The position numbers and the translations under genes are program-made. Shown piece after piece: positions 4,892 through 61,935 of a DNA stretch of 64,000 nt; position 1 is the first letter of the stretch; the number at the start of each line of letters is the position of its first letter. Location: assembly GCF_004664715.2 (NCBI RefSeq), contig NC_051084.1, forward strand, positions 65,787,971-65,851,970. The letters are read 5' to 3'. Below the pieces are notes generated by a model, which saw only the letters and a program-made list of their open reading frames with translations, did not search any database and had not been told where the DNA came from. Origin of the DNA: Peromyscus leucopus. Lineage: Eukaryota > Chordata > Mammalia > Rodentia > Cricetidae.

Positions 4892-5054
4892 AGGGACTAG
4901 AGAGGTGGTCCAAGAGTTAAGAGTGTATGTCACGCTTCTACTTCAGGGCCCTACTTCAGCTCCAAACACCAATATCAGGCAGCTCACAATTGCCTTTAAT
5001 TCCAGCTTCAGGGAATCTGACACCCTACTTTGGCCTCTAGAAATACCGGCACAC

Positions 5055-13746: not shown

Positions 13747-14277
13747 GTGCCAGCCAGCACCTGACTGGACTAAGAGGTGAGTCTTTATCCTCATACCCGA
13801 ACACCCCAGCCCCCAGGCTTTGGGCCCAGGGGCACAACCCTGCGCCCTACACCACCACCCACTGAAGTTCCAGTTTCAGGCCAGTTGGCAGGCAGACCTT
13901 CTGCACACAGGTCAGACTACTCCTATCCCCCATCAGACTCTGTAACCAAAGCCACACCTCCCCCAAATCCCACCCACCCTCCGAGACTGCAACTGTTCCC
14001 TGAGACAGAGCTTGCCAGCACCCAAATGGACTATGAGGCCAGTTGGCAAGCAAACCTCCTGCAGACAGGTCAGACTACCACCATCTACCACAGGTAAGAC
14101 TGAAGCTACTCCCTGAGTCAGAGCCCACTAGAGCCAGTTGGACTAAGAGCTGCTCCCTAAGACAAAAAGTCCATCACCATTGACTAGACCTAGAGCTCCC
14201 ACTGGATCAAGAGTATCAATCAGACCAAGAGAGGCTCCCTCAGACACAGACACCACTTGCACCAAGTGAAGAAAGAG
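13747..14277 (+). promoter_or_regulatory. L1 copy A 5' UTR with tandem monomer-like units
   Basis: GC-rich leader with an internal near-repeat: CCAGTTGGCAGGCAGACC at 13881 and CCAGTTGGCAAGCAAACC at 14039, offset 158 bp, each followed by a CAGGTCAGACTAC block. A third partial unit (GAGCCAGTTGGACTAAGAG) lies near 14130. Rodent L1 promoters are often built of tandem monomers, so this is the likely ancestral promoter. Present activity cannot be judged. Confidence 0.7.
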
Positions 14278-15343
14278 ATGGGTAGACGCCAGTGCAAAAA
14301 TACAGTCAACAACATAAAAACCAATACGGCTCCATCAGAAAGACCTGAACATCCCAACAGAGAAGAAACAGAAGGTATCTACCATAAAAATTACTTTAAG
14401 AAGATATTAGAGATCTTAAAAGAGGAAATAAAAAATTCCCTGAAAGAAACCGAGGAAAAGTCAAACAAAATATGGGAAGAAATCAATAAAACCCTTGAAA
14501 GCGAAGAGAAAGCAATTAAACAAGTGAGGGAAACAGTTCAAGATTTCAAAACTGAAATGGAGTCAATAAAGAAGACACAAACTGAGGTAATGCTGGAAGT
14601 AGAAAATCTGAGTAAACAAACAGGAACTACAGATGCAAATATAACCAACTGAATGCAAGAGGTGGAAGAGTAGATCTCTGGCATTAAATATATGGGAGAA
14701 GAAATAGATTCATCACTCAAAGAAAACACTAAAGCCAACAAAGTCATGACCCTAAATGTCCAGGAAATTTGGGACACCATGAAAAGACCAAACCTAAGAA
14801 TAATAGGGATAGAAGAAGGAGAAGAATACCAACTCAAGGGCACAGAAAATATATTCAACAAAATCATAGAAGAAAACTTTTCCAACCTAAAGAAGGAAAT
14901 GCCTATAAAAATACAGGAGGGTTACAGAACACCAAATGGACTGGGTCAAAAAAAAAAAAAAAAAAAAAGGCCCCTTGCCACATAATAATCAAACCACTAA
15001 ACATACAGAATAAAAAAAAATTACAAGAGCTGCAAAGGAAAAAGGATGAGTAACATATAAAGTTAGACCCATAAGAATAACACCTGACTTCTCAATGGAG
15101 ACTCTAAAAGCCAGGAGGTCCTGGACAAATGTTATGCAGATACTAAGAGACCATAGATGCCAACCCAGACTATTATACCCAGCAAAACTCTCAATCAACA
15201 TAGACAGAGTAAACAAAATATTCCATGATAAAAACAGATTTAAACAATATCTCTCCACAAATCCAGCCCTACAGAAAGCACTTGAAAGAAAAATCCAACC
15301 TAAGAAAGTTAGATACACCCATGAAAACACAGGCAATAGATAG
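14278..15343 (+). pseudogene. L1 ORF1 (copy A), disrupted
   Basis: I place the start at the ATG at 14278 (MGRRQCKNT...), which matches the usual ORF1 opening better than the in-frame ATG at 14257. Residues 20-125 are rich in Glu, Lys, Ile and Asn as in the ORF1p coiled coil. The conserved RNA-recognition core follows (QEIWDTMKRPNLRIIGIEEG near 14761-14820), then the C-terminal domain in another frame (15095-15343; LKARRSWTNVMQILRDH). Breaks seen: stops at about 14650 and 14671, and a frame change across an A run at 14949-14968. ORF1p normally coats L1 RNA as trimers. Confidence 0.85.
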
Positions 15344-15399
15344 TTCCATACCAACAAATACCAAAGAAGGGAAACATACAACACTATCACCAAAAAATA

Positions 15400-18300
15400 A
15401 CAGGAATTAACAATAACTGGTCATTGATATCCATCAATATCAATGGTCTCAATTCACCTATAAACAGACACAGGCTAACAGAATGGATACAAAAACAAGA
15501 TCCATCCATTTGCTGCATACAAGAAACACACCTCAACTTCAAAGACAGACCCCACCTCAGAAGAAAAGGCTGGGAAAAGACTTTCCAATCAAATGGATTT
15601 AAGAAGCAAGCTGGTGTAGCTATCCTAATATCTAATAAAATAGACTTCAAATTAAAATAAATTGAAAGAGATTGGGAAGGATACTACATATTTATCACAG
15701 GAAAAATCTGACAAGACGAAGTCTCAATTCTGAATATTTATACCCCAAATACAAGGGCATCGACATTCATAAAAGAAACATTAGTAAAGCTTAAATCACA
15801 CATCAAACCCCATACACTAGTAGTGGGAGACTTCAACACCCCATTCTCACCAATGGACAGGTCTGCCAGACAGAAATTTAACAGAGAAATAAGGGATAGA
15901 TATAGACAGAATATTCCACCCTAACACAAAATAATATAGCTTCTTTTCAGAACCCCATGGAACCTTCTCCAAAATTGACCACATGCTTGGTTACAAAGCC
16001 AGGCTCAACAGATACAAAAAAATTGAAATCACCTCCTGTGTCTTATCAGACCACCATGGCTTAAAGATTTCAACAACAACAAAAATTACAGAAAGCCTAC
16101 AATCTCATGGAAACTGAATAATACCCAATTGAATCACCAATGAGTCAAGGGAGAAATAAAGAAAGAAATTAAAGATTTCTTAGAATTCAATGAAAACGAA
16201 TGTACAATGTACCCAAAATTATGGGACACCATGAAAGCAGTGCTAAGAGGAAAATTCATATCTAAATGTGCACATGAAAAAGTTGGAGAAATCTCATACT
16301 AGTGACTTAACAGCACAACTGAAAGCTCTAGAACAAGAAGAAATAAACTCACCCGGGAGAAACAGATGCCAGGAAATAATCAAATTGAGGGCTGAATTTA
16401 ATAAAATAGAAACAAAAAGAATAATACAAAGAATCAATGAAACAAAGAGTTGGTTCTTTGAGAAAATCAACAAGATAGATAAGCCCTTATCCAAATTAAC
16501 CAAAAAGTAGAGAGAGAGCATCCAAATTAACAAAATCAGAAATGAAAAGGGGAACATAACAATAGACAATAAGGAAATCCAGAGAATCATCAGGTCATAT
16601 TTCAAAAACGTGTACTCTACAAAATTGGAAAATCTGAAAGAAGTGGATGACTTTCTGGAGAGGTACCCCATACCAAAGTTAAATCAAGACCAGATAAACT
16701 ATTTAAATAGACCAATAACCCCTAAGGAAATAGAAATGAACAATAAAAGTCTCCCCCCCCCCAAAAAAAAAGCCCAGGACCAGATGGTTTCAGCACAGAA
16801 TTCTACCAGATTTTCAAAGAAGAGCTAATACCAATACTCTTCAAATTGTTCCACACCATAGAAACAGAAGGAACATTATCAAATTCTTTTTATGAGGCTA
16901 CAGTTACCCTGATACCCAAACCACACAAAGATGCAACAAAGAAAGAAAATTACAGACCAATCTCCCTCATGAACATTGATGCAAAAATACTCAATAAAAT
17001 ACTGGCTAAACGAATCCAGGAACACATCAAAAAATTATCCACCATGACCAAGTAGGCTTCATCCCAGGGATGCAAGGATGGTTCAACATATGAAAATCTG
17101 TCAATGTAATACACCATATAAACAAACTAAAAGAAAAAAACCACATGATCATTTCATTGGATGCTGAAAAAGCCTTTGACAAAATCCAATACTCCTTCAT
17201 GATAAAGGTTCTAGAGAGATCAGGAATACAAGGAACATACCTAAACATAATAAAGGCAATTTACAGCAAGCCGACAGCCAACATCAAATTAAATAGAGAG
17301 AAACTCAAAACGATTCCACTAAAATCAGGAACAAGATAACGCTGTCCACTCCCCCCATACTTATTCAATATAGTACTTGAAATTCTAGTTACAGCAATAA
17401 GACAATATAAGGAGATCAAGGGGATACAAATTGGAAAGGAAGAAGTCAAACTTTCATTATTTGCAGATGATATGATAGTATACATAAGTGACCCCAAAAA
17501 TTCTACCAGGGAACTCATACAGCTGATAAAATCCTTCAGTAAGGTGGCAAGATACAAGATTAACTCAAAAAAATCAGTAGCCCTCCTATATAAAAATGAA
17601 AAAGGGGCTGAGAAAGAAATCAGGGAAACATCACCTTTTACAATAGACACAAATAATATAAAATACCTTGGAGTAACTCTAACTAAGCAAGTGAAAGACC
17701 TGTATGATAAGAACTTTAAGTCTCTGAAGAAAGAAATCGAGGAAGATATCAGAAAATGAAAAGATCTCCCATGCTCATGGATTGGTAGGATTAACATAGT
17801 AAAAATGGCAATCTTACCAAAAGCAATCTACAGATTCAATGCAATGCCTATCAAAATTCCAACACAATTCTTCACAGACTTGGAAACAAAATCCCAACAC
17901 AATTCTTCACAGACTTGGAAAGATCAATACTTAACTTTATATGGAAAAACAAAAAACCCAGGATAGCTCAAAGAATCCTATATAATAAATCAACCTCTGA
18001 AGGCATCATGATCCCTGACCTCAGGCTCTACTATAGAGCTATAGTAATAAAAAAAAGTTTGGTACTGGCATAAAAACAGACACGTAGACCAATGGAATCG
18101 AATTGAAGACCCTGACATTAATCCACACACCTATGAACATATGATTTTCGACAAAGAAGCCAAAACGGTACCATGGAAAAAAGAAAGCATCTTCAACAAA
18201 TGGTGCTGGCATAACTGGATGTCAACATGCAGAAGATTGCAAATAGATCCATATCTGTCGCCATGCACAAAACTCAACTCCAAGTGGATCAAAGACCTCA

Positions 18301-27190: not shown

Positions 27191-28474
27191 TCAAAAATTT
27201 TTAAAGTATAAACAATTGCATAGTCACAGAAACTTGTATAAAAATAGAAACCAGAGTCTACTACTCTGTTATTCTCTCCGTGTGTTTTGTCATTTTCTGT
27301 CTCTCCATGTAGAAATAGAGATAGAAATACAGGTAGCTATACATTAGATACAATTAGTGAAAGTAAATATAACTAAACCAAGAGCCAAAGCAGAAGTTGA
27401 ATATAGTTTTTACTTGCATCTGGATCTACACATAAGAGTGAAGTGAATAATTTTGTCCTCTAATATTCTTTTCTATATGCAATAATTTTGTCCATAATTT
27501 GACCTAATCTTTGGATTACTTGCTTGTCCGTAATAATCAGAGTTATGAATTTGATATTTCAGACACCATATATACCCTTTTGCAGATCTTCCAATGACTG
27601 TGGCATGGTATTTTTTTGGATGCAGAACCTTGACTCAACATGGAATGCTTATTTTACATTTGGAAAGTGATTTTCAAGGTGATCTTTTTAATTGTTTTGG
27701 TCATCATTTAAGAGGAGGCCCACTCTCATTACAGCCATAAACAAAACATTAGTTTTCAAAAACTTCGTCTCCACTTGAGAGGCATGAATGTCATCTTATT
27801 GCATTTAGACATAACTATATTTAAACCCTCTTTAGAGGAGGCAAGGAAGTACAGAGGCAGAGCTGGTTTTTGCTTTCACCTGGGTTTGGAGAAGGCCCAG
27901 AGAAAGGTCTTCTCCACTATCACCTTCTTCGGGAAAAGAACGAGGCCCCCTTCTCAACCTCACCATGAAACACCTCTGTGCCTTTGTGGACAGTGGTAAA
28001 TAGAGAAACTTATAACTGGTCAAGTGCAGAGAATAAATATCTGCAGAATATTTAGCCATAAATGGGACATCTATATTGTAATCCCTCCTCCAAAGTTTCC
28101 AGGGAACTTGGAAAATGTGGTAGAAAGCTTGTAAGAACCAAATATCAGAGAGAAATGGTGAGAAACAGTGTCCTAAATACGACAGGATTGCTTCATTTGT
28201 GAACTCACAGCAGCTGGGTGGCTTGTACAAGATCAAAGCACTCAACATCCAGCATGGGTTGGGGAAGCACACACAAGCACCCACCCCTAGCTGAGGAGCT
28301 AGTCACAGTTGGTGGCAGCTAAGGGAGGGGAGAGTCTTTTTTCTTGAGGAAAAAATCTCTGATAGCTTTACTATACTCCAGTCAATGGCCCACACACGTG
28401 GGTATTGACAGAACTAATTGGATTCAGTGGGTTATAAAGTAGAAAAATATTAAAATTAATAATAAAATTAGTGA
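27191..28474. other. Non-coding DNA, nothing recognised
   Basis: The antiparallel frames at 27775-27999 (+) and 27832-28284 (-) overlap in the same slightly GC-richer segment. Neither shows a recognisable domain, and I do not call a gene. Confidence 0.45.
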
Positions 28475-28479
28475 TTTCA

Positions 28480-28690
28480 GGGATAGATACATGGCTGAGT
28501 GGTTAAGAGAACTCATTGCTTTTACACTGGACCCCTTTTCAGTTCACATACATACAGGGCACCTTACAACCGCCTGAAATTTCAGCTAAGGTTTCGGAGG
28601 GGGGGTCAATATCCTCTTCCACCTTCTGCAGGCTCCTGCACACATGCAGAGCACACAAACTCAGGCAGATTCAAATTAATTAATTAATTT
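28480..28690 (+). repeat. B2/B3-type SINE, diverged
   Basis: AGGGATAGATACATGGCTGAGTGGTTAAGAGAAC (tRNA-like head), then CAGTTCACATACATACAGGGCACC, CCTCTTCCACCTTCTGCAGGC, CACACATGCAGAGCACAC and an ATTAATTAATTAA tail. Confidence 0.5.
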
Positions 28691-30167
28691 AAAATATAAA
28701 GAGGGTAAGAAGTTAGGAGGAGGCATGGTGGATATTACAAGAGTTGGAGGGGCAGGGTGGATATGACTGAAATGCATTGTATGTATATATGAATTTCTCA
28801 AAGGATAAATAAAAATAGTAAGAGAAAAATACAAATCAAAACGGAACAGAAAAATGAATAGAGCTCATGAAAGTGTCTTCCTTTTTTTTCCTCTGAAAAC
28901 CGAGGGAATTAAAGACACATTCAAGCTAATTTTCAGTGTCATGTTTTATTTTTACTCAGGTTTGTAAAAAGAATCTCTTTAAGGTTAGTCTTCACACCAT
29001 TCTTTAGTTTTCTAGTGTATTCTTTGCTTCCTTCTGCCCTTCAGCCCTTTTCACTTTGCCGACCTCATTGTTCAAATTTCATAGTCATTGTATATATAAG
29101 ACCCTTTGCAAAGAGTCCAGAAATGCTCAGTGCCTGGTGCTTCCTTTACCTCACATACTTCACTTGCTGCCTTTGGCAAAATGGTGGAAATAGATTTCCT
29201 CAGCTGGTGCATAAAAGAAAAGGAAGGGGGAATCTGCATTTATTTATCTTCTTTTTACCATGTACTTTCTGGTTAAACCACTTTTTTTAAATGTTCAACA
29301 AACATGAGGTAATTAAAACCAAGAATATGAGTACCTATCTAAAAATGAGTTCCTTTCTGGTGGGCTGTACATTGCACATCTACCCAAAGCTAAAGCCAAG
29401 TCTCTCTTATCTTCTATTAGATGTTCCTGTGTAAAAGAAAAAGTTGGGTATTTCCAAAGAATAGCTTTCCTGTATGAAGTTTTTAATACCACACAAGATA
29501 ATAGGTTTCATTGTGATATTTGATGCAAATATACCTTTGTATTTTACTCATATCTACCTTCCTCTTGCCCTTTCTTTTAAATAAACTCTCCTGTTTCTTA
29601 TCCTAAATATTACTGATTTTGCCTACATGTGCTACTCTTGGGTGGCAGGTTTGTTGTTCGTTTGTTTATTTTAAATTTACAACTCAGAATTTAATCATTC
29701 TATACTCTTGGAATGTGAGGCTTCTACCAAGAAATGTGTTAGTCTTTGAAAGATCCCTGATTGCAGCTTTGCAAGCTTCTTTTGAAACTTTTAGACATCT
29801 TTATCATGTGATTTTTGCCACTTTGACCACTAATAAATTTGAGGGCATGTTTATATTGGGTTCCACATCTTTCCCAAAGTCCCCATCTTTACCAAGACTA
29901 GGAAAGTGGCTGCACTTTATTAAATGGTTTCCTATATTTGTTATTTTTCCTTTGTAAGCACAAAAATGCATAGACTTGTTCACTTAATTATGTCACAAAA
30001 ATTCTAGATGCTTACTTCATTTTCCGTCTGCCTGGGATGTTTCAATAATATATTCTGTCTTCCATTTCTGTTGGAACTTTCAATTGTATTTTCTAATTGA
30101 CTTATTTTGTTCATTTACAATTTTTCTGTTTGGTTCAATTTCAACAGTTTTTACACATAATTCTTTA
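28691..30167. other. Non-coding DNA, nothing recognised
   Basis: AT-rich, no repeat family identified. Frames at 29015-29290 and 29619-29957 show no domain or retained motif. Confidence 0.45.
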
Positions 30168-30728
30168 TTAATTCTTTGGAAATTTCTGCCAATACCAAGC
30201 TGTTTTTCTTACTGCCACTCTATAGTTGAATTTGAAGTCCGGGATAGTGATGCCTCCAGAAGTTCCTCTATTGTATAGGATTGTTTTGACTGTCCTGGGT
30301 TTTTTGTTTTTCCATATGAAGTTCAGTATTGCTCTTTCCAAGTCTATGAAGAATTGTGTTGGTATTTTGATGGGGGTTTGCACTGAATCTGTAGATTGCT
30401 TTTGGTAGGATTGCCATTTTTACTATGTTAATCCTACCAAGAACATGTGATATCTTTCTATTTTGTGGTATCTTCTTCAATTTCTTTCTTCGAAGACTTA
30501 AAGTTCTTACCATACAGGTCTTTCACTTGTGTGGTTAGAGTTACCCCAAGACATTTTATGTTATTTGTGGCTATTGTAAAGGGTGATGTTTCTCTGATTT
30601 CTTTCTCAGTCTGTTTATCAATTGTATGTTGGAGGGTTCCTGGCTTTTTCTAGTTAATCTTGCCACATTACTGCGGGTGTTTATCAGCTGTAGCAGTTCC
30701 CTGGTAGAACTTTTGGGGTCACTTATGT
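30168..30728 (-). repeat. L1 ORF2 fragment (antisense)
   Basis: On the minus strand this encodes the segment just after the reverse-transcriptase motif. [16 protein letters not shown] near 30385-30432 and the [20 protein letters not shown] block near 30290-30360 match copy A around 17790-17950. The right end (TTTTGGGGTCACTTATGTATAC) is the reverse of the sequence just downstream of FADD and stops at about 30728. Truncated at both ends. Confidence 0.85.
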
Positions 30729-31550
30729 ATACTTTCTATGTATCCCAATCCTGCTTATCTCCCAATCCCTCCATATCTTACCCCCACCTCGCTCCTCCAT
30801 CTTTTCAATACCTCTTCATTCATCCTAGTGGCATCGAGAGTTGTGGTGTGTCACATAGTGTATCCTTTTGTCTAACCAGCCCCACCCACTAAAATGATTA
30901 CATTGCAATTTGAGTTCAATTGTCTAGATTCAAGCAAGGCCTACTGGTTTTTGGATACCACCATACATCCTGGAGACTGAGTCCAATCAATTAGAAAATT
31001 CCTCTCAGATACCCTGTTGTTGCCTCCCAGATCATGAAGAATTCTATGGAGCTATTAGTTCTAATAGGACCAGATCCTTTGTGTGCACATTCAGCAGTTG
31101 ACAGATGGAGATTAGCTTAGATTAGGAATGGAGCACAAACACCACGCCCCAGGTGGGGTCTGGGTCGAATAGCCTGAACTGGTATAGTTTCAGAGCATTA
31201 AGAACCCATTCCTGCAGCCGTAGAGGGCAGAGCACAGCATCTCCAAACCAATGCCAGCAGAGGCAGGCTTATACCAGCCCTATGGTATACTGTGAAGTTT
31301 TGTAGACCAAATTCGTCTCACTGATAGTAACGATTCAGCTCTCAGAATGGCTGAGGTGGGGAGTGGAAGTCCAGCTCTCCTGTTATCGGTGTCACAGCAT
31401 GGACAAGGGCAGCTATTCTGCTGTAAAACTCGGCATGGTAATCGAGGATAGACCATGCTCTCCACATGACCACGCGTTGATATTTTCTCGAGCGAGATTT
31501 GCCTCATAGTGACTCCTTGGTTAGTCCTTGTTCGGCCATACATATGAGCT
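30729..31550. other. Rodent-like sequence grading into anomalous sequence
   Basis: 30729-31280 looks like ordinary rodent repeat-type DNA (TCCCAATCCCTCCATATC, CAGATACCCTGTTGTTGCC, GGACCAGATCCTTTGTG). From about 31280 rare-in-mammal words such as ATTCGTC, TAACGATT, ACCACGCG and CTCGAGCGAG begin to interrupt otherwise plausible sequence. The change is gradual over several hundred bases and has no insertion-like junction. Confidence 0.5.
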
Positions 31551-34500
31551 CCACGTGTCGTAGCGCAAAGCCAGCTCCCTAAGACCCTGAGTCGAGCTTC
31601 TGCTATCGCTTGAGCAACAACCTAGTACCATGGGCCCCTATAGACACGCGATCATGCCTGGCTACCCACAGCACCTGTGATGGGCTTGCTGGTGCACACA
31701 CAGTTACGAAGATTGGCTTCGACCCCATCGGTAGCAAGGCCCTACAGACACCAGCCAAATCCAGTCCACATGTCCAACTCGGATAGTTTGGCCCAGAAAC
31801 TCGCTCTGGCAGTCCAACATTTGCTTCTTGGATAGTGCTTACTTCAAATACGAGACAGCGGCCGTAGATGGGTACATCATTATCAAAAGCAGACATACTG
31901 GATACTAATGTAAGGATCAGTGGCTCACACAGATTCAGCACTAGTAGCTCCTTTGGCAGTAGCCTGACCCAGATGACCCCATTTGCCTCACACCTAATGG
32001 ACGAAGTATAGTGCTCTCAGCACAATCACTCTAACATCCGTTGGCCACAGAGTAATAGGCAAGACTGACGACCCCATCAGAGGTCATCTACGTGGATGCG
32101 ACTTTAGGGTCCGGAACCCTACACGCCACAGAACATCGCACAGAGTTACCTGAACTTGTGATTCAGTCACCACAGGACCCTCGAGACATATTTTTCGGTC
32201 CTGGCATTGCAGCCAGCCAGCAGTTTCCGACATTGCATCCACACATTGAGCGTCCCGTACGAGCGGACCAAGCACACGTCACCACCCACGGATCAGCGTT
32301 ATACCCCACTGCAGCAGAAAAGCGTTTCATCATGATATGATTACCTCAGGAGCGTTCACCACTACGAACAAATGAGTTGAACAGCGAGCTTCTCTTTCTT
32401 TGATGAGTTATGGTACTCCATATTGGGCCTCCTCTCGTGTTTGAAGATGGAAGATTGATTCCCATTTAGATGTGAGGTCCCCTTTGAAAGCACATGAGCT
32501 CCTGTGCAGAACTCGTGAGTTAGCTCACTGTCTATTAAGCTGTTAGTACTGTCTAATACCACTTATATGATGATATGTTTTCTGTCAAGCTGACTCTATT
32601 AGTCTCAGCGGCTATCTAGTGAGATGTTTGAATCGTTCCCACCTTGCGTGCTGCTTTCTGCTTTTCACTAATTCGAGTCAATGAACAACCCTGGCTAGGC
32701 AGATTCCAAAGTTTTCATTTATGTTTTGTTCGTTTTTCAAAGTATCACTTCCCATAATGGCTAAGTCTCACATGCTCCGCCTTCTCCTTACTGAGTTTCT
32801 AGCAGGCTTGCCTCTATTACGCGACTGTCCATTTAAAAAGCATACAGCTCGTCTGTCTGTCATGTTGCTTTCACCTTCGGTGGAGCAGAAATAAGTAGGA
32901 CTGAGGCCACTCTCCTATTAGTCTATCTCTCGAATCTCCCTTTCCACACTTTCATTCTCTTGATATTTATCGCTTGATTTGTTTTGATATTACTTAGGTC
33001 TGTCCAGGTTAAGCATCAAATGCATCTTACATTTAATCTTTTTTATTAAACTACACACAATGGCGCCATGAACTAATCCACTATATACTCTGTTTGGACT
33101 CGGCTCCAAACCTCCCGCGTATCTCGAATATGCAGTACAATGATGTGTAATACCAATGACTCACTCACAAGAGTCCGCATTCGTGACGTACCTGAGAGAG
33201 CTTCTGAGAGTTCCTTGGGAAGCATCCAGCTTTAGGTTTCCTGTTCGCCTAAATATAAAGCACTACGATAGTGTCCTATATATTTTTACGAATTAATTGA
33301 GCAACCCATATCAACGTATTACGTTACGTTAACTTATAACGACATAATTTATACGTGCAGTCCTCAGATGTCAATGTAGGCCTTCTACTGCAGGTTCATA
33401 TTTCCGCTATTTCCTCCTTCACACTTGCCCTCCCGTACCACCTGTCTTGCTCCTTCTGTCTGGAGTCTGATTTGTCTCTTGACTCTGTGTAGAAGTGATC
33501 TCACTCCCTTTCTGACTTTCATTTCCTTTTGCTCATTCTTGCTCTTTACCATATAGTCTATTCACTCGCGTCGAACGCACTGTTGAATCAGATACTAATA
33601 CTAACATAAACCAGAAGTTTGTGCTCTTCATGCCTTTGATTATGCTTTATGCTGGTAAATTCGGTCTGGACAGCTTCCCGTACCTTGACTGATCATGATG
33701 CCCTAGTCTTTCCACTATCTAATCAGTTAAATCTAACGTCTCAGCTGTTTGCGATGCCTATGTCACACCCTAGATCACAAATCTAGTTAACATCGACTCA
33801 TAATCTCAATTCGTCAAATTTTGGTTCGGCGTCGTGTCGCGTACTGTCAATCCAAAGTGGTACATCACCCTCCCTAGTTAGTCTCCACTATATAGGTCTG
33901 AATGTTTACTCACATCTACTCGATGCCTGGGGAGAGTGGATCTCTACCGTAGTTGTTGTAAAAGGTCAATTGTTGTAATGGGCCATTTAAGCCGAACAGT
34001 GAGTTTATCCTCTCAGTTCGAGCAATAATATACAGCAGCTTCTGTCGTCTCACTGACCCTCCGGTTGTTCGAAGCGTTGTTTATCAACATTGCCACAACT
34101 GCCTCCGATATCCTAAGCGTGAGTGCTCTTCTCTTCTTCTGCACGTCTAGGCAGCTACTAGGTGAGTATTCAGTAGTTTCTCAGACTAGCCTTGACTTCA
34201 CAGACAATGCCTGCAGGGCCTGTCGATTGTCGCTCTTGCTGTCTATATCATTGCAAAATCAATTAGCAACTAATAGCATACTGACCAACGTCAAGATCAT
34301 AATGTTGCCAGTTCAAGTGCTTTCTTTTATAATGTCTGTTCATTCGGGCTTCGATCGGCGGCTACTTTCACTGTTTCACAGGCGAAGTACGAATAATGAC
34401 ATTATCAAATCTAACCAAATCCACAAGTATACCTGGTGTTTTGAAAAGAAGGAGTGAATCTTTCATTATAGATTTATTCAGTCTCACACACAGACTTCAT

Positions 34501-37500
34501 TTGCCATGATTACGAGTTTGACATCCTTGCATTCAATTCTTAATGTCTCATTTCCTCCTATTTGCACTCTAACATCCATGACAAGAATTTTTAAATGAAC
34601 GTTCACCCAATGAACTAGTAATCCTTTATAACGCGTATTATTCCACCAATCTCTATGTATCTTTTCAAGAATTAATACATGCAGGTCATATGAGCAAGAA
34701 CATATCTTTTCTCCAATTTAATTTTTACTTTTATATCTTTTAACAAATCTTTATTTTGCAATCCTGAGCTTGCTTCTTAGGCGCTTAGCAATTATAGTAC
34801 CAAGGGAATCTCAAATTTCTCTTTCCCTGGGCCATGTAGGAGACTATTGGTGCCAGATGGTGAAGTCACTCTCCGTCTTGCGCGTGTCTGTCTCCGCGAG
34901 ATAGGCTTTATACTTATGGTCTTCATACACAAGACTCATAGCTGACAGAATGCTCTCTTGCCTCTTAATAGGCAATACTGACCGCACAGTTCTTCTTTTG
35001 ACAATTTGAGCTCTATCGCATTCGAAGTTTCTTCATCCTTCTCTAACATTTTAAGTTCAGTAGTGATCGTGGATGTAATCTGGGATATGCAATTCCACCA
35101 CACTCGGTCTCGGATCTCTGCGTAGATAACTTCTCCCTCTCATCGCTCTACGCGTCCTATCTTATAACCCCTCAGGTAACGACTGTCTTGTGTACGCCAA
35201 TGAAAGGCCCGTATCCAATCACTGCTCGTCGTGCACTAAGTACCTGAATTCTGTTAAGTTTGGGAGGAGAGCCCTCATGACTCCATCCCTTATCCTACCA
35301 GCTGTTCGTCTAGTGGCCTGACCACGTCTCATTCTTCTCCCAACTTTTACATGTAGCAGATACCCTATTGTCTCCGTATCGCCGATACCTTAATCCCGTG
35401 ATGAGGGCCGCGTCCTATGCTGCACCACACGTCATCCACTATACCCCAACCTCTTCCTCGGAAACTCCGGCTGCGATCATCCTACCCCCTTGTGACCGAG
35501 TACCTGTCCGGTCTCCATCACGACATGGCCTGATATCCACTGTGAGTCTGGATAACGCGCCGCGTTAGACTTGATTATCAGACGCCTGCCACCAACTCTT
35601 ACTCCGCACATACTGAACTCCAGACATCATCCACGATATCGAACTGACTTACCCTGCAGTCAGGCGCAGCCCAACTCTCCTCCCGTCCCTCCTAATTCAC
35701 GCGACGTAGTTTATAGATACCTCAGACATAGCTCTTACCCTTCGCTACTGCGACGCGTTCCACGCTTTCCTCGGCGTTCGTAACCTCCGGTCATCCAGGC
35801 TTTCGCATCACCACTAATCTACCAGCCCTTGGGAACCTCCGTCCCATTCAGTATGCAGATATATTGGACATATCCCTATTTCTGTATGACATCCCTTATC
35901 GTGCTACTCCTGCTCTCGCACACCCGCCTACAGTGTACTTCGCGGTCTTACACCCCAATATCGTTCACAGGCGACTGCTTTAATTCACCCACGTTCCACA
36001 GCTCGCCATGCTACTGTCTGGATTCTCAATAAACGTCTACTGATTCTCGCGTACACCTGCACACCAGCTCCTCGCGTTCCTATATCGGTAGCGTCTGAGT
36101 CTCAACAAGATCCTCGCTATGCACGTTGAACCACCACGCGCTAGCGTCGCAGATTCGGTCACAGCCTGTGACTCTTTGCGCTCTTGACCATCACCCTCGC
36201 TTCGTGCTTCCGAGAAGGGACCTATATTTACCCCCACAGCATCGCTTCAGGCCTTAGGCCTCTAATCGTATTAATCTAGCTACGCATACCATCCAGATCT
36301 CACAGCTGAAGTCAGATGCTAGTCCCTCTGCCAACAAACAAACACCTTTCCGCTGAGGATATAGACTTGATCCGGAAGCCACCCCACCCCATCCTCAGAT
36401 ATTGATCATTCTAAACCCTTAAGTCACCGAAATCACCCTTATCTATCACGAGTCTCCGTAACCTAGACCTTGTCTCTTCCCCGCATGCTGCGTATAACCT
36501 GACACATAGGCGAAACTAAAGATTCAACCTGCAGTAGTCACTTCGACCTGTGCAAGCGGCAGTTCAGCAATTAATCAGATACTTCCTTATCTCTCAATAC
36601 CTTTATTATGTCTACGTGATGCACTCGTGGTCACCCCACCAAGACTCGCGCATGGCAGCCCATGCATCTCAGACCCGTCTTTCCTCTCGCAGGGCTAGTC
36701 GATCTTCACTGGTCTCCCTCACGCGCACCTGCACTTCACGACCCAGATCTATATGCATTCATTCCACCGCATCCAATCGTAGCAGTACCTATTCCCCAAG
36801 TCGTACTTAACCTATAAATGCAAATATTACAATACTCCTCTGGTCCTTTTTAGCCTCAGCCCTATTAGCCGCACATATCATGCACCGTTTACTGCAACGT
36901 GAGACGAGGATCTCTCCATACCCCCGACTTCTGCAGTGGCCAGAGCCCGCTGAGTCAACACCCGATCCCCAGCGCCGCAGTACTCTGCTACACGCGGTAC
37001 CCGGCTTGTCGTACCTTTCCCGTCGGCCGCCGTTTAACTTTATTCACGTCTCCACCACCCGTTTACACGCCCTCAACGCTCCCGCCGGCACGGCTCCCAC
37101 AACCAATATTCATCTACCCATATCGACGGCCATCAACTTGTCTTCAAAGCGCTATACCCTCACTCTCTTCGCACGTTCTACCGTCGGCGTGACCCATATC
37201 TCGATCCTTCTTCACTCTGTTATTGATGTTCGCTCCTCCCCCTGCCTTCACGGTGTTTCAATATACGTCCACACACCTGCCTCGGCCATTCTTTACACTC
37301 TTTTCTTCACGTTGTGGACAATGACTCGCCCGCAGAGCCTTCGCATCTGCACGCGATTCTGGCTTTGCCGCCCAAGTATGGCGCTTTATCCCTAGTTAAT
37401 CCTCGCCAGTCGTCTGCATCACGTTATCCAACCACTGGAACAGGCACGCCTTAGAGTCGCCACCGTGTCATGCCGCGCCGTAAGATGACCTAGATACACG

Positions 37501-40300
37501 CTCGTTTTACACACCCGCAACTTCTTTCTCTAAGCTCTTTACATCCACATGCCGACGACAACCTAAGCAGGCCAGCCCAATCTTTTCTGCCTCCTGCTCG
37601 ATTCTATATTCCCTACGTCGTCCCCCGCATCATCGCCCGCCGAAGACGAGCACGCTCACTTCGACTGAACACGATTCTGCGCGGGGTCCTCTTAAAATAA
37701 GCCCACATACTGTTCGCCTACCTTAACCCCCTGAAACTCCTCCAGGTTTACCTGCACCACCTCCGCGGCAAACCTTATCACACTCACCCCCTCTCCACCT
37801 GTCACGACAGCCGGCTTCCACTGACAATTCATTCCACCATCTATTCAGTTGTATGATGCAGTTATTATCCTTGGTTACTCGTACATTGTGTCCGCCTTCC
37901 CCTTGTTGTATCCACATACGGCTTGCTATTCCCTTAATGTTACTGGTTATCAGCTAGTCTCCTCACGTCATGAATTGCACATCGTGTAGATGCTGTATCA
38001 TGCGAATGCGCTCTTGTATGCACTGATTATGTACTCGTATCTAGAGACTACCAGCGCTTCTTTTCTTCGCTTGGTCGTGAGCACTCGTCTCTCGTACCAA
38101 CTTACTGATCTCTCATACGACTGGCAAGAGCTGTGTCGACCCTCACCACGGGGATAGTTTCGCCCTCAAGAGTCGTGTCCAGCAGAGAATCGCTGAATCC
38201 TGCTGCAACCCTTATGCATACACCGGGCGAGCATACCGCATCTCTCTGCGGCACAAGCAACTCACTGTCTGGCTATTCTTGAAGATTAACCCTGACATAC
38301 GATTTAGTCTGCCGATACTAGGGCGCAGGGTGTTCCCGAAATACTGCATATCCAGGGGTTGACATGACTCGACTTGTCTATCATATACCCAACGCCCCTT
38401 CAACGAGTAGAAACCCCGCGACGCACTGGTATACTCGGAGCCCGCATCGTATGGACCTCCTAAGTGTATTATTAACGTTTTCCAACTTCATGGCACACCA
38501 GCTTAACTATATCTTCCATACCACTTTTCACCTGACCAACGCCAGATGTGCGCGCTATGGCGCCCACTGATAGTGACTCTCGACCAGCTACTTCCTAGCA
38601 TTATGCATATCTAAGATTCACAGCCGTACGCTGCTTCCCCCAGCCTGATTCCTGATCATCAGAAAGTGTTCCCTATCCAGTTTGTCAACCATTCCCCCCC
38701 CCTGACCAACCGTCCCAGCTCAGTGTATCCGCGGCATCGATTATCTAGTTCTTCGTTCGTATCACCCTCGCCCACAGCCCGCCCCTCGACAGTTGTATAT
38801 ATACTTACCTTGGCGGTTGCCGCAATCGTCGATACCACCTCTTAATTCTTCACGAAAGAGATGCGCATGCTGCGTTTAGAAATCCAGTTTCCCTCGACCC
38901 CTAGTAGGCGTACTGCCCACTCCTTCACTTTGGACCTTTGATTTTACCCGATCCACCAATTCCTCCACTCTTACCTCGACATGCGGAAATCTCGATGCTA
39001 TAACGCAGCTACTTAGCAGTCACCTCTTCTCCCGTATCTCGTACGCCCGGGCTCGTCAGAGCCGCACTCGCGATGATCCGTCATAGACACTATTACGCCT
39101 GCAAGCTCATTATGCGCTCCCTCACATCTCCTGCCCCATTCTGCGTAACCGCAACCTATGTCCTCTCGTTGCGCTCGATTAGCGAGTAGTTTCCCTCGAT
39201 CCGGCGAGTACAAAAGTTCGCACCGATTCGTGCAATCTTGCGCGTTGCATCGTGTCACAATGTTGCCGATCCATGCCACCCCAGCATAATAAGTTCATAC
39301 CTGCCCAGATCCATTATAATCCTACGAGCCGATCGCTTACGTTTCCTCGCCGGCTTACGACTCCGTTTGCACTATTACCACTATCTCCCAAATGGCACAC
39401 TCCTCACTGCCGCCAACCTACCGTCACTTAACTCAGATTCGTCTCATTCCTGTTTCAATACAATCAGTCGTCCCTGTCCGGTGCCCCGCGCTCCGTGTCG
39501 GCGAGATCCAGTGCTACTGATCCTTTCTCCGATAACGTCATCCACCAATCGAAATCGGTATATATGGCGTCATTCTGGACGATGCCGTCCTCTCGGTCTA
39601 ACCCCGCCACGACGAACTCGACCTTTCATTTTTATCGCTTTACGATCGCGTTACCGTCACACTGGTTCAACGACCATATGCCAGCGTTTGTCACATTTCA
39701 GTTACCGAGAATCTCCGTCAGCATCCACACTCTACCACTTATTTAACTGTTGCATATTTTTGTCGCGTCCACGGTATCTTCTTCAGGGCGCCGTGCCACC
39801 AGTGTACTGTGAACAACACTTCTGTCTTAGCACCGTGAGCATAGAACTCCTCTCGCGATCTTGCCTCCCTTCTCCTACAGGCAACGTATCCTCTTCCTAG
39901 CTCTAACTCATACCAATTCCGAGATCTACCCGTCCCGGTTATCAAGCACAACTCTACAACCGGTCAACCACGAAAGGCCGCGCAGCACCTCCCTTCTAGC
40001 TCGGCTTAAATGAGGGCTAACCGACGTAGTGCGTTGACAGCTACTGGCATCTGTTCCTAAAGTCTTTAGATGTCCACATCTATCATCTCACTATGCCTGT
40101 GTCTGCCCGATGGTCCCACCATCAGTGTCACCAGCCCCTCACATATACTTACTGCCTCACCCCCTATCTGCGCTCAAAACCGTCATAATACATTCCGCTC
40201 TCCCATTCCCATGCGTGTCACTCCTCAACACGATGGCCCTGGCGATTAAAACCCTAAGCGCACCTACTGCTATAAGGGGACTGCTACCTTTAATGAACTC
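31550..40300. other. Compositionally anomalous block, probable assembly or base-calling artefact
   Basis: For nearly 9 kb I find no SINE, L1, LTR, microsatellite or long A/T run, although these fill the rest of the window. CpG is not depleted: 39601-39660 alone holds nine CpGs, 35701-35760 six and 37081-37140 five. The + strand is pyrimidine-rich and G-poor, especially 35.3-40.2 kb. Frames such as 36880-37395 and 39238-39900 are long because C/T-rich DNA has few stop codons; their products are Ser/Pro/Arg/Leu-rich and domainless. I see no CpG-island or satellite structure. Uncorrected long-read sequence used as gap fill is the best explanation; foreign DNA is less likely because the left edge is graded. 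Confidence 0.6.
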
Positions 40301-40330
40301 TTCCAAGTCACCTCCACTTGTGGTTGTCTT

Positions 40331-41235
40331 CACTCTATTTCACAGCTCTGTTTTTCAGAAAAAAAATAATAAGGATGTCAGGACATGTAAGCATTCCTTT
40401 ATATATGCACACATGCACAACTGATTCCCATCTGAAAGAATGCAGGTCAGTGTTGACTTGTGGACTGACCAGTTTGCGTTCATCTATAGATTCAATTCAA
40501 TATTCCCTGTTAGTGATGTGTAGCACTTTGAATTCTCTAATTGTACCTTCTTATTAATTCTCTCATTGATTAATGAGTTCAAAAAATATTCGACGTGTGT
40601 ACTTTTATATTCAAAGTACCTCCACATTTGGTCTTATTTTTAAATAACACTCTTACAAAATATTATATGCCCATTTAATTAAACATTATTAAAGACCAAG
40701 TAAGAAAACTATCCAGCACCTCAGCTGACTCTCCTTCTGTGTAGTCATATCTTTTCAATACCAATATGACCTTATTCATCCCATGTATAAGAAACTTACT
40801 CCAATGGATATTTCTTCATTTTAGCTTTTGGCTTCATCTTGAACCCACTGACTTCCTATTGGAGTTTTCTAACATCTGCTCTGCCCACTTTTCTAACTGC
40901 AAGCTGCCATCATTTCAGTTCCTAATGCACCTTAGAGTTCATATGAGCTCACTCTTTATTCAAAAGTTTACACACTAAATCCCATCTTTAGAGAGAGAGT
41001 TCTTCCTGTCCAGCATGCTATTCTCTTGTCCTCTCAGTGGCTTTCTCAGTCTTACCTGAAGTCACTACTTGACACTCCACAAGCAGCTTATCATGAGCCC
41101 AGTGTTGTTTGTTTACAAGAGTAATTTTTACTGTAGCTTTGTTTTTCTTACTGTTGCTATCTGCCCTAACCAAGCACAATAGAAAGTGAGCAAAGACTAT
41201 GGGCATTACGAAAAGCACCCTTACTAGGACTTCTA
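40331..41235. other. Ordinary AT-rich non-coding DNA
   Basis: Composition returns to the normal CpG-poor state. No gene or clear repeat family seen. Confidence 0.5.
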
Positions 41236-41239
41236 ATGC

Positions 41240-41701
41240 TTATACATCAGGATTAGGTATGATCAGTTCTTACTCTGCGCAAGAAAGGAACTGTGCCACC
41301 CCCCATTCTATCCCCAAGGCCATCCACCCTCATCCCTGGCCCTGCTGCCACTGGGCCCCTACCCCCAATCCCAGTGGGTGTCTACCACAAAGGAGCAAAC
41401 CACTCCAGCTACAACCACCTTCACCAGTCAACTCCAGCAGACTCCACAGGCCCATTCACAGTCCACACCATTTGAAAGAACAGTCACAAGCGCTCTACCA
41501 GAGGCCAGGCTGGTCCTATGTATCACACAAGAAGACTGCAGCTTTACCAGATACCAAACTGGATTAAGGGACTCAAGACCCCCAAAACCATAGCAGAGAC
41601 ATCTTACTTGACCTAAAGACTCATCAGTCATCAGAACTTTTGGCCACTTAGGGCAGAAAACCAGAGAGGATACAGAAACTAAGGAACAAAACACCCATTG
41701 A

Positions 41702-41732
<31 letters not shown>

Positions 41733-41780
41733 GGAATCAATAACTAGACCTATAATTACCCCTGATTCAAGACACTAAAT
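41240..41780 (+). promoter_or_regulatory. L1 copy B 5' UTR
   Basis: C-rich leader (CCACCCTCATCCCTGGCCCTG, TTCACCAGTCAACTCCAGCAG) followed by the A-rich pre-ORF1 region and a (CA)n tract at 41703-41725. It shares no obvious monomers with the copy A leader, so it represents another 5' UTR lineage. Three overlapping short frames here (41199-41593) are not genes. Confidence 0.55.
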
Positions 41781-43260
41781 GTCAGTATAAGAATACAGTC
41801 AATAACAGCAATAACAGAAGGGCAATAAATCACCACCAGAAACCAGCTATTCCATGGCAGCAATCCAACACAGCTAAAGTACAAGAAAACAATCTCAAAA
41901 ACACCTTTATAAAGATGATAGAGGTTCTTGAAGAGGAAATGCAAATAATTCCTTAAAGAAACTTGGGAAAAGACAACCCAAAAGTTGGAAGAAATCAGCA
42001 AATCTTTTAAAAATGTCAAGAAAAAGTAAGAATCGACAGAAACAAATAAAACTGCTCAAGACATGAAAATAGAAATAGAAGCAATAAAAAAAACATGAAC
42101 TGAGAAAATTCTGGAAATGAAATGCCTGGGTAAATGAACAGGAACTACAGATGCAAGCACCATCAACAAAATACAAGAAATGAAAGACAGAATCTCAGGC
42201 ATTGAAGATACAATAGAGGAAATGGATTCATCAGTCCAAAAAAAAAAAAAATGTTAAATCTAAAAAAATTCCTAACACAAAATATCCAGTGCTGGGGGAT
42301 ATCTTTCTGTATGCAGTGAGTATATATTGTCCCCATTGGTTAATAAATAAGCTGCTTTGGCCTATGGCAAGGCAGCTTTGAGGCAGGCAGGAAATCCAAG
42401 GAGAGAAAGGAAGGAGAAAAGCAGAGTCTGGAGAGAGACACTAGCCTCCACCAGGAAAAGGAAGATGTGAAAGTGCCATTAAGCCACAGGCATGTGGCAA
42501 CTTATAGAATAATGGAAATATGTTAAGTTATGAGAGCTAACTAGCAAGAAGCCTGCTATAGGCCATACAGTTTGAAAATAATATAAGCCTCTGTGTACTT
42601 ACTTGGGTCTGAGCGGCTGCAGGACCGCTGGTGAGAGATATTTGTCTGGAGTGCAAAGGGTTGGGCGGGACTGGAGAAACCTTCTGGCTACAATCCAGGA
42701 AATCTGGGACACTATGAAAAGACCAAAGATAAGAATAATAGGAGTAGAAAAGAAGAATAATCCCAGCTCAAAGGTCCAGAAAATATATTCAACAAAATCA
42801 TAGAAGAAAAATTTCCCAACCTACCTATAAAAGAGGTACAAGAAGCTTTTAGAACATCAAATAGACTGGAGAAGGAAAAAAGTCCCCTTGCCACATAATA
42901 ATCAAAACACTAAATAGAGAGAATAAAGAAATAATATTAAAAGCTGCAAAGGAAAAAGGCCAAGTAATGTATAAACCCAGACCTGTCAGAATTACACCTG
43001 ACTTCTCAATGGATACTCTAAAAGCCAGAAGGGCCTGGACTGTTGTCCTGCAGATTCTAAGAGACCATGGAAGCCTGCCCCAAATACAATATCTAGCAAT
43101 TTTTTTATTACCATAGATGGAGAAAACAAGATATTTCATGACAAAGTCAAATTTAATCAATATCTATACACAAAATCAGCTCTACAGAAGGTACTGGAAG
43201 GAAAACTCCAACTCAAGGAAGTTAAGAAGTTAGATCAACCCACAAAAACACAGGCAATAG
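41781..43260 (+). pseudogene. L1 ORF1 (copy B), disrupted
   Basis: A-rich coiled-coil-type region to 42260, then the RNA-recognition core (the QEIWDTMKRPKIRIIGVEK block at 42694-42750) resumes directly after the solo LTR. The C-terminal piece (ACTCTAAAAGCCAGAAGGGCC, 43015-43035) follows. Many stops and indels; the solo LTR splits the coding sequence. Confidence 0.75.
42284..42698 (+). mobile_element. Solo LTR in L1 copy B with target duplication ATCCAG
   Basis: The LTR body is 42290-42692 (403 bp), beginning TG and ending CA, with ATCCAG at 42284-42289 and 42693-42698. Copy A has the uninterrupted target (ATGTCCAGGAAATTTGGGAC near 14754). Family words: CCCATTGGTTAATAAATAAGC, TATAAGCCTCTGTGTACTTACTTGGGTCTGAGC. 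No internal region. Confidence 0.92.
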
Positions 43261-43279
43261 ATAATCCCACACCAGAGGT

Positions 43280-43280
<1 letters not shown>

Positions 43281-43321
<41 letters not shown>
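43281..43321. repeat. (CA)n microsatellite in L1 copy B
   Basis: About 20 AC units between ORF1 and ORF2 of copy B; copy A has only GAAACATACAACACTATCACC at this place. Confidence 0.95.
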
Positions 43322-43323
<2 letters not shown>

Positions 43324-45090
43324 CACCACCACCACCAGCAGCAATAACAATAAAAATAACTGGAAGTAACAAATCACCAGTTATTAGTATCTCTCAGTGT
43401 CAATGGACTTAATTTGTCAAAAAAATGTACAGGCTAACAGAATGGACACAAAACCAGGATCTATCCTTCTGCTGCACACAAGAAACACAATTTGACATCA
43501 AAGACAGACATTACCTCAGAGTAAAGGGTAGGAAAATAATTTTCAAATCAAACATACCAAAAGAAAGCTGGTGCAACTATCCTAATATCTAGCAAAATAG
43601 ACTTCAGAACAAAATTAATCAAAAGAGAAGGACATTTCATATTCATCAAAGGAAAAATCCACCAAGATGATGTCTCAATTCTGAACATCTATGCCACAAT
43701 ACAAAGGCACCCACATTTGTAATATATATATGTTAAAACCACATATTGAACCCAATACATTAATACATTAATTGTGGGAGACTTCAATGCCCCACTCTCG
43801 CCAAAGGACAGATCATCCAAACAGAAACTAACAAAGAAATAACGGAACTATCAGATGTTATGACTCAATGTCCCTAGTATATATCTACAGAACCTTTCAT
43901 CAAAACACCAAAGAATATACCTTCTTCTCAAGACCTCATGGAACCTTCTCCAAAGTTCACCACATAGTCACAAAGCAAATCTTAACAAATAAAAAACAAT
44001 TGGAATGACATCACATCTGTGTCTTATCAAATCACCATGGATTAAAGTCGGAGTTCAACAATACAAACTTCATAACCCCTACAAACTCATGGAAACTGAA
44101 CAACTATCAACAGAATTACCACTGGGTCAAGGAAGAAATGCAGAAAGAAATTAAATACTTCCTAGAATTCAATGAAAATCAATGTACAGCATACTCAAAT
44201 TTATGGGACACAATGAAAGCAGCGTTAAGAAGAAGGTTCATAGCACTAAGTACCAACATAAATAGAAAATTAGAGAGATCTTATACTAGTGACTGAAAGC
44301 TCTAGAACACAAAGAAGCAGACACACCCAAGAGAAGTAGATGGCAGGAAATAGCCAAACTGAGGGCTGAAATAAATAAATAGAAACAAAGAGAATAATAC
44401 AAAGAATCAATGAAACAGAGTTGGTTTTTTGAGAAATTCAACAAGATAAACTAATTGTTATCTGAACTAACCAAAAGGCAGAGAGAGAGACTATCCTAAT
44501 TAACAAAATCAGAAACAAAAATGGACACATAACAATAGACACTAAAGAAATACAGACAACCATTAGTCATACTTCAAAAGCCTATACTCCACAAAATCAG
44601 AAAATATAAAGGAAATGGACAAATTTCTTGATAGATACCACTTACCAAAATTAAACCAAGATCAGATAAACAAGTTAAACAGATCTGTAACCCCTAAGGA
44701 TATAAAGGCAATCATTACAGGTCTCCTAACCAAGAAAAGGCAAGGACCAGATGGTCTCAGTGCAGAATTCTAGCAGACTTTCAAAAAGAGGTATTACTGA
44801 TACTCCTCAAAGCATTCCACAAAATAGAAGCAGTTGGAACATTGTTAGATCCATTTTATGAGGCTGTAGTTACCCTGAGACCCAAACCACACAAAGACTC
44901 AACAAAATTACAGAACAATTTCCCTCATGAATGTTGATTTAAAACTACTCAATAATATACTGACAAACTGAATCCAAGAACACATCAAAAATATCATCCA
45001 CCGTGATGAAGTGGTCTTCACTCCAGAGATGCAGAGATGGTTCAAAATATGAAAATCTGTCAATGTAATCCATCATATAAACAAACTGAA

Positions 45091-48221: not shown

Positions 48222-49438
48222 CAAAGCAATTCCACTAAAATCAAGAACAACACAAGGCTGACTACTCTCTCTATCTATTCAATATAGTACTTGAAGTTCT
48301 GGCTAGAGCAATATGACAACAAAATGAGATCAAAGAGATACAAATAGGAAAAGAAGAAGTCAAAGTATCACTATTTGCAGATGACATCATAGTATACATA
48401 AGCAACCCCCAAAATTCTACAAGGGAAGTCTTACAGCTGATAAACACCTTTAGCAAAGTATCTGGATACAAGATTTACTCAAAAAAATCAGTTACCCTTT
48501 TCTATACAAATGACAATAGGGTTGAGATAAAAATCAGAGAAACAATCACCCTTCACAATAGCCACTAAAATATCTTGAGGTAACTCTAACCAAGCAAGTG
48601 AAAGACCTGTATGACAAAGTTTTAAGCCTTTAAAGAAAGAAATTGGAAAAGATATCAGAAGACAGAAAGATCTTCCATGTGCATGGATCAGTAGGATTAA
48701 CATAGTAAAAATGATAATCTCATGAAAAGCAATCTACAATTTCAATGTAATCCCATCACAATTCTTTACAGACCTTGAAAGAACAATACTTAACTTCATA
48801 TAAAAAAAAACAAAACAGGATAGCTAAAACAATCCTGTGCAACAAAAATACTGCTGCAGGTGTCACCATCCCTACTCTCAAGATCTACTATAGAACTATA
48901 GTAATAAAAACATCATGGAATTGTAATAAAAACAGACACATTGATCAGTGGAATCAAATTAAAGACCCAGACAAAAATTCACACAGCTATGGACACTTGA
49001 TTTTTGACAAAGAAGCTAAAACTATACAATGAAGAAAAGAAAGCATCAACAAATGGTGTTGGTATAACTGGATGTCAACATGCAGAAGATTGCAAATAGA
49101 TCCATATCTATCATCCTGCAAAAAAACCTCAAGTCCAAATGAATCAAAGACCTCAACATAAACCCAGTTACACTGAACCTGATAGAAGAGAAAGTGGGGA
49201 ATAGCTTTGAACACATAGGCACAGGAAGCAACTTCCTGAATAGAACATCAGTAGCACAGACACTAAGATCAAAAATTAATAAATGGGACCTCATGAAAAT
49301 GAAAGTCTTCTGTAATGCAAAGGACACTGTCAATAGGACAAAATGGCAGCCTACAGAATGGGAAAAGACCTCACAACCTTACATATGACAGCGGGCTGAG
49401 CTCAAAAATATATAAAAAACTCAAGAAACTAGACACAA

Positions 49439-60995: not shown

Positions 60996-61589
60996 CAATT
61001 CAAACCCATAGAAACAGGCAGTATAGGGGTAGTACCAGGGCCTGGGGACTTAGAGGAAATAAATAAGTATTATAAAAGAGATAAAGTGTTGGACAGAATA
61101 AACAGGTTGTATTGTATCTGACATACAGCATGATGATTGTGTTTATTAATGTGGTGTTATTTGCTTAAAATTTGTTGTAAGCAAATCTTCAACATTCCCA
61201 TCACTTAATAAAATAACCCTGCAAGATGATGGGTATGCTAATTTGCTTGATTAGGGTTATCATCTCACAGGAAATGCATATGTCAAAACATGATGCTGCA
61301 TATGAGGAATACATTTTCTTTTTTCAGTTATACCTCAATACAGCTAAGCAAAGATGGGATCTTATTTAAGAAAATAGTTGCAAGCAAGTATGAGGAGAGG
61401 GAAGCAAAGATAGGTGAGTGCAATAACAGTGCAGAGCTTCATATGAGTTTGGGACCCATTTCAACATTCTCAAGGAATCAGTGATGATGTTTTTACAGCA
61501 TAGTGTGCCTGGTGCTGAGGCATGAGGGTTGTCTGAGCCTATGAGTTAAAAACCCATCATGGATCACATAGTAAGAAAGAATAGAAAAA

Positions 61590-61935
61590 AAAATAAGAGA
61601 AAGAAACAAAAAGGAAGAGAAGAGAAGGGAGGGGAGGAAAGAAAAGGGAGGGAGGGGGAGGGGAGGAGAGGAAAGAGAAGGGGAGGGGAGGGGAAGAGAG
61701 GAAAGAGAAGGGGAGGGGAGGGGAGGAAAGAGAAGGGGAGGGGAGAGGAGGGAAGGGGAGGGGAGGAAAGAGAAAGGAAGGGAGGGGGAGGCGAGGAAAG
61801 AGAAGGGAAGGGAAGAGATGGGAAGGGAGGGGAGTAGAGGGGAGGGTGAGGAGAGAGAAGAAGGCAAGAACGGAGGGGAAGGGAAGGGAACTAGAAACTG
61901 AAGGAAAGGGAGAGAAGAGGAGAGGAAAAGAGACT
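61590..61935. repeat. Long polypurine tract (GGGGA/GAAA-type)
   Basis: About 340 bases almost wholly A and G on the + strand, built of GGGGAGGGGAGGAAAGAGAAG-like units of roughly 20-30 bases. Antiparallel frames (61559-61837 and 61493-61867) are Arg/Glu/Gly or Pro/Ser/Leu repeats and not genes. Mirror-symmetric polypurine DNA can adopt triplex structure; that is general knowledge, not shown here. Confidence 0.95.

Follow-up and report, generated by a model that had tools for sequence, protein, structure and literature searches.

The window, the whole 64,000-nucleotide stretch of Peromyscus leucopus DNA analysed here (NC_051084.1, positions 65,787,971 to 65,851,970, forward strand), belongs to a sequence 79.8 Mb long, in a genome that totals 2.475 Gb over 1840 contigs. 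A block unlike its surroundings was delimited by the maximum-scoring segment at 31429-40288 (~31.43-40.29 kb). An earlier sequence-only reading of the window had placed a foreign block of about 9 kb at 31550-40300. That observation is real and lies far beyond chance. Its coordinates proved right and are refined here both in their limits and in the recognition that the block is not uniform but consists of two unlike parts, a ramp at 31.1-34.8 kb and a core at 34801-40288. To the left of the block lies an ordinary interspersed repeat (30183-30736), which matches two other copies in the window, both in reverse orientation, at 75-83% identity (17474-18074) and 72-76% identity (48391-48930); all three copies are taken by us to be LINE-1-like. 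On the right, CpG-poor genomic sequence resumes within a few hundred bases of a junction at 40288-40320, as placed by the end of the maximum-scoring segment and by the CpG o/e of 500-b windows. The remainder of the window contains A-rich sequence at 14001-18000 and 42001-45000 (A 42-45%, CpG o/e about 0.07-0.17), where 14.3-16.0 kb is matched at 65-77% by tiles from 41.8-44.0 kb and repeat bodies are probably present, and a purine-rich, degenerate (GGGAG/AAGAG)n tandem repeat at 61573-61861 (G 32.5% in that kilobase), which looks like an ordinary simple repeat. No tandem array was detected by TRF between 27.2 and 41.7 kb, in agreement with the earlier remark that the block has no satellite period, and a satellite is unsupported as its identity.

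CpG content separates the block from its flanks. The CpG o/e was 0.00-0.36 in every kilobase of the window outside 31001-41000, which bears out the earlier description of CpG as rare there, and 0.96-1.36 in every kilobase within 35001-40000. In 500-b windows, values of 0.41-0.60 (starts 31001-31751) were followed by 0.62-0.86 (starts 32001-34751) and 0.81-1.46 (starts 35001-39751), and the right edge was crossed at 0.90, 0.53 and 0.27 in windows starting at 39751, 40001 and 40251. The rise across the ramp, from ~0.4 to ~0.85, is uneven, with dips to 0.49 (window 31501) and 0.64 (window 34501). The sequence-only reading had described CpG as undepleted throughout the block; this holds for the core, while the ramp, at 0.41-0.86, is still somewhat depleted. 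Its count of nine CpGs in 39601-39660 was exact on recount.

The core (35001-40000) is composed of A 0.217, C 0.337, G 0.177 and T 0.270, with a C+G content of 51% and a mean CpG o/e of 1.12. The block had also been called rich in C and T and poor in G, a description that fits 35001-40000 (C+T 61%, G 17.7%) and fails at 31101-32400, where no pyrimidine bias is present (C+T 50%). Over 5 kb the core has a GC skew of -0.31, with single 500-b windows ranging from -0.15 to -0.40, and 58 own-genome 5-kb tiles span -0.11 to 0.09. The ~1 kb immediately right of the block likewise has a negative GC skew of about -0.2 to -0.3. The own-genome tiles came from a background sample of 30 loci from one chromosome, amounting to 295 kb including about 5 kb of N, or ~0.01% of the genome. 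No second block of this kind was met in these 30 loci, in which the 1-kb CpG o/e reached at most 0.67 in 290 tiles and the off-diagonal statistic described below was at least 158 in 58 tiles.

The dinucleotides of 35001-40000 depart from independence (chi2 53 on 9 df). When the four same-letter pairs were excluded, the same sequence fitted independence (chi2 4.7, 5 df, p=0.45). This quasi-independence test, which takes letters to be independent apart from same-letter avoidance and scores the off-diagonal dinucleotides, never fell below 158 in the own-genome 5-kb tiles (58 of 58; median 250), which had not been picked as CpG islands, and gave 48-128 in eight of eight tiles from E. coli, a control genome free of mammalian CpG decay. 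The texture of a mammalian genome is therefore absent from the core by this statistic. Order-2 dependence given order-1 was borderline in the core (52 on 36 df, p=0.041), with a median of 125 and a minimum of 57 in own-genome tiles and values of 153-240 in E. coli. The mutual information (MI) of 34801-40300 lay inside the range of 100 shuffles at lags 2, 3, 4, 5, 6, 9 and 12 and exceeded it at lag 1 (0.0070 vs a maximum of 0.0033). In the flanks, MI at lag 2 was 0.0156 and 0.0068, and MI lay above the shuffles at five of seven lags in the left piece (all but 5 and 9) and at four of seven in the right piece (2, 4, 9 and 12). Repeated 8-mers in the core numbered 346 against 352 expected, as compared with 932 against 449 and 2800 against 680 in two flank pieces. 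Single-base runs of at least 3 were rarer than chance in 34801-40300, with the exception of two classes, GGGG (4 vs 3.7 expected) and C runs of at least 8 (1 vs 0.6). The letters of the core thus come very near to a random sequence in which homopolymers are suppressed, with small departures present.

The size of these departures was gauged against 300 simulated sequences in which letters were independent apart from a suppression of same-letter pairs, with parameters hand-set to resemble the block. The core fell within the 5-95% range of this null for CpG o/e (1.12; null 1.00-1.14), for the off-diagonal statistic (4.7; null 1.4-10.6) and for MI at lags 2 and 3 (0.0008 and 0.0024; null 0.0005-0.0024 for both), with the lag-3 value at the 95% point. 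The order-2 statistic of 52.0 was just over its range of 24.0-51.7. Since the mean CpG excess is contained in a null of same-letter avoidance, a biological cause for it is unnecessary. In 300 further simulations, CpG variation in the core exceeded the null (s.d. of 500-b windows 0.198 vs a 95% point of 0.178), and its CpG peaks were slightly over the 95% points at both 500 b (1.461 vs 1.456) and 1 kb (1.36 vs 1.297), indicating that the noise is not perfectly homogeneous. An alternative log-likelihood score, comparing the block's own composition with an order-4 genome model, was less discriminating: 3 of 579 background 500-b tiles (in loci L014, L017 and L004) attained the range of the core, so this score alone is not specific enough, and the ramp values of 0.038-0.109 overlap the top 1% of the background (0.076). 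The highest background noise score belonged to positions 4501-5000 of L014, a GC-rich and, by eye, collagen-like locus that is G-rich (G 50%) at 4501-5000 and 9501-10000 and contains an N gap of 62.

The same measurements bear on whether the block could be real but unusual rodent DNA, either a very old unique unmethylated region or a large CpG-island-like domain. The usual CpG island cut-offs are a CpG o/e above 0.6 and a C+G content above 50%, and 35001-40000 exceeds both over 5 kb (1.12 and 51%); the slight excess of CpG variation over the simple noise model would also suit such a domain. This reading nevertheless appears very unlikely, given a strand skew well outside that of the 58 genome tiles, suppressed homopolymers, higher-order structure that is nearly nil, a mean CpG level within the prediction of same-letter avoidance, and a CpG o/e of only 0.67 in the CpG-richest of the 290 sampled kilobases. 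In addition, no repeat fragment common to the flanks or the sampled loci was found in the block. A CpG island as such is unsupported, as the core is without genome-like texture. A true 9-kb chromosomal stretch of near-maximal entropy, strand-skewed, CpG-undepleted and repeat-free, kept by some process that avoids same-base runs, is less probable still.

The ramp retains traces of ordinary sequence. Off-diagonal dependence persists weakly in 31301-32400 (p=6e-4) and 32401-34800 (p=2e-4), and base composition shifts near 32.4 and 34.8 kb. Order-2 dependence was undetected in these short pieces of 1100 and 2400 bases (p=0.21 and p=0.64, respectively). One frame per strand is stop-poor in 32401-34800 (29 vs 40.4 and 38 vs 56.0 stops expected), and repeated words in 31301-34800 are above chance (8-mers 159 vs 118 expected; 12-mers 3 vs 0.5 expected); both features may be traces of a template. 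On CpG alone the first kilobase of the ramp (CpG o/e 0.45) is unexceptional, as a value of 0.45 or more occurs in 9 of the 290 own-genome 1-kb tiles. A dilution simulation, in which random letters were inserted into 254 real tiles of the same genome, raised the mean CpG o/e to 0.39, 0.54, 0.66, 0.75 and 0.84 as the noise fraction went through 0.1, 0.2, 0.3, 0.4 and 0.5, and the CpG range of the ramp matches these values as if genomic DNA had been diluted 10-50% by noise letters. The ramp is accordingly listed as partly genomic and partly noise. A narrower version of this interpretation, overlapping with our main reading, regards the core as noise and the ramp as a copy, with numerous errors, of ordinary genomic sequence or of a repeat. 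The residual dinucleotide signal, the shifts in composition, the stop-poor frames and the slight surplus of repeated words make it rather probable, even though a template was found neither for 31050-32400 in the own-genome search, where it matched itself alone in a search insensitive to noisy copies, nor for the ramp tiles in the flanks and the 295-kb sample. The left neighbour of the ramp (30737-31450) also gave only a self-match in a local search against the sampled loci and flanks.

Relatives of the block were sought at several levels. Tiles were searched against the window flanks and the 295 kb of sampled chromosome, and non-self repeat matches at E<=1e-4 were obtained for 43 of 53 flank tiles vs 0 of 10 block tiles, consistent with the earlier description of the block as free of repeats. 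One of the ten block tiles was initially flagged; its sole match was its own flank and it was hence not counted. A degraded copy of a repeat from the window or the sampled chromosome is unsupported by this result. The recovery of flank-tile partners under simulated error fell from 43 of 53 to 31 at 15%, 19 at 30%, 6 at 45% and 0 at both 60% and 80%. This collapse in detection means that an absence of matches is predicted by heavy noise, yet it does not constitute proof of noise. In the own-genome search, 35001-37000, like the left part of the ramp, matched itself alone. The low-stringency search that the sequence-only reading had proposed returned no match at E<=0.01 in phages (31100-39000) or plasmids (33000-40300). 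A Pfam scan covered ten of the 23 listed ORFs, none of which came near a curated cut-off (best E 0.013, 15.3 bits vs a cut-off of 27), which agrees for these frames with the earlier statement that no domain-bearing frame is visible. By a method that finds close relatives only, close relatives of a 220-aa ORF were absent from viral contigs and those of a 171-aa ORF from prokaryote contigs. Rfam gave 0 matches at gathering scores over 28000-44000. Within the searches made, the block showed no homologue, as is expected of a noise fill.

These results weigh directly on a foreign origin, in which the block would be bacterial, plasmid or viral sequence, present as a contaminant or through horizontal transfer, that was spared CpG decay. 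A CpG o/e of ~1, a base composition unlike that of the flanks and the stop-poor frame on each strand of 32401-34800 would all suit such DNA, but the phage and plasmid searches were empty, no scanned ORF approached a Pfam cut-off and neither of the two ORFs compared with viral and prokaryote contigs, respectively, had a close relative there. Stop codon counts in 34801-40300 are close to those expected by chance in each of the six frames (49-63 vs 62 expected in the + frames, 94-115 vs 102 expected in the - frames), and no frame is strongly stop-depleted, the lowest count being 49 vs 62. The core lacks a clear lag-3 signal, its MI lying at the 95% point of the null, as compared with 0.0039-0.0148 in E. 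coli tiles. The lack of period 3 in the core by itself makes foreign coding DNA unlikely, and foreign DNA of any kind is considered a very poor candidate. Deliberately random or synthetic DNA, such as a spacer or library insert, either integrated or brought along by contamination, would explain letters that are nearly independent. It would not be expected to show a genomic-to-random ramp on its left or same-letter suppression, and the plasmid search offered it no match; this origin is held to be extremely improbable.

The block is best explained (probability roughly 0.94) as sequencing noise retained in the assembly, and not the organism's DNA, most likely from a long read extended over or closing a gap. 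The artefact favoured by the sequence-only reading is thus strongly supported by the near-random core and the relative-free searches. Confidence is high for noise and moderate for long-read gap filling, which we infer from a ramp present on one side only, a right edge that is abrupt, the asymmetry between strands and the way the chromosome is gapped. On this view, a long read with its anchor in the left contig would have served to carry the assembly over a gap or to close it. Proceeding rightwards, the base calls of that read would have lost contact with the template over ~3.5 kb, and over the next ~5.5 kb the calls would have been essentially random, favouring C and T on the + strand. A base would have been repeated less often than by chance if two successive equal signals were merged into one call by the base caller. 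Coverage by one read, or by none with a usable alignment, would have let these errors escape consensus and remain unpolished, and the next good contig would start at ~40.29 kb.

Several observations are compatible with this route. The edges have the shape expected of a noise fill, with an uneven ramp on the left and an abrupt edge on the right, and one poor read at a gap would be expected to lose its signal over kilobases and then to give way quickly to good sequence at the far side. In a consensus built from reads of both strands, an asymmetry such as that of the core would tend to be evened out, and the suppressed base repeats would fit a base caller that merges equal signals. When the chromosome was sampled in 20 evenly spaced 10-kb pieces, 3 of them contained N gaps (60, 62 and 114), which suggest a scaffolded assembly. 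Among the papers listed in literature searches, none described this assembly. As counterpoints, neither edge of the block bears a run of N or any other sign that a gap was filled, and a template of the ramp was not recovered, although a local test detected 0 of 53 flank tiles at 60% simulated error. The small departures of the core from randomness, the stop-poor frames and surplus 12-mers of the ramp and the negative GC skew just right of the block also count against this explanation.

As an artefact, the block should be masked over 31.1-40.3 kb before annotation. It has no biological significance and matters as a point of assembly quality control. It passes the usual CpG-island cut-offs, contains chance ORFs of up to 220 codons and could be mistaken for lineage-specific sequence when genomes are compared. 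With a single number, the quasi-independence test set the core apart from every genome tile (58 of 58) and every E. coli tile (eight of eight), and it could be used to scan whole assemblies for such fills and mask them.

Two known systems provide a comparison. The core resembles a CpG island in its C+G content of 51% and CpG o/e of 1.12 over 5 kb, and differs from one in being strongly strand-skewed, suppressed in homopolymers and almost devoid of genomic texture. The available text of PMC7671305, in which reads were aligned to a reference, lists homopolymers among the most over-represented k-mers of PacBio and Nanopore reads, which is the opposite of the core and does not fit; it also describes insertion errors that peak where PacBio reads begin, with errors otherwise uniform along reads, and this peak is in keeping with noise at a read end. 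The other parallel is with the long low-quality read segments that the available text of PMC6977585 counts among the artefacts of PacBio data that call for repair ahead of assembly. The block is known from its assembled letters alone, and a sequencer type is ascribed to it by inference, in which respects it differs from those segments; like low-quality PacBio segments in assemblies, it is kilobase-scale, noise-like, set between stretches of good sequence and free of relatives in the searches made.
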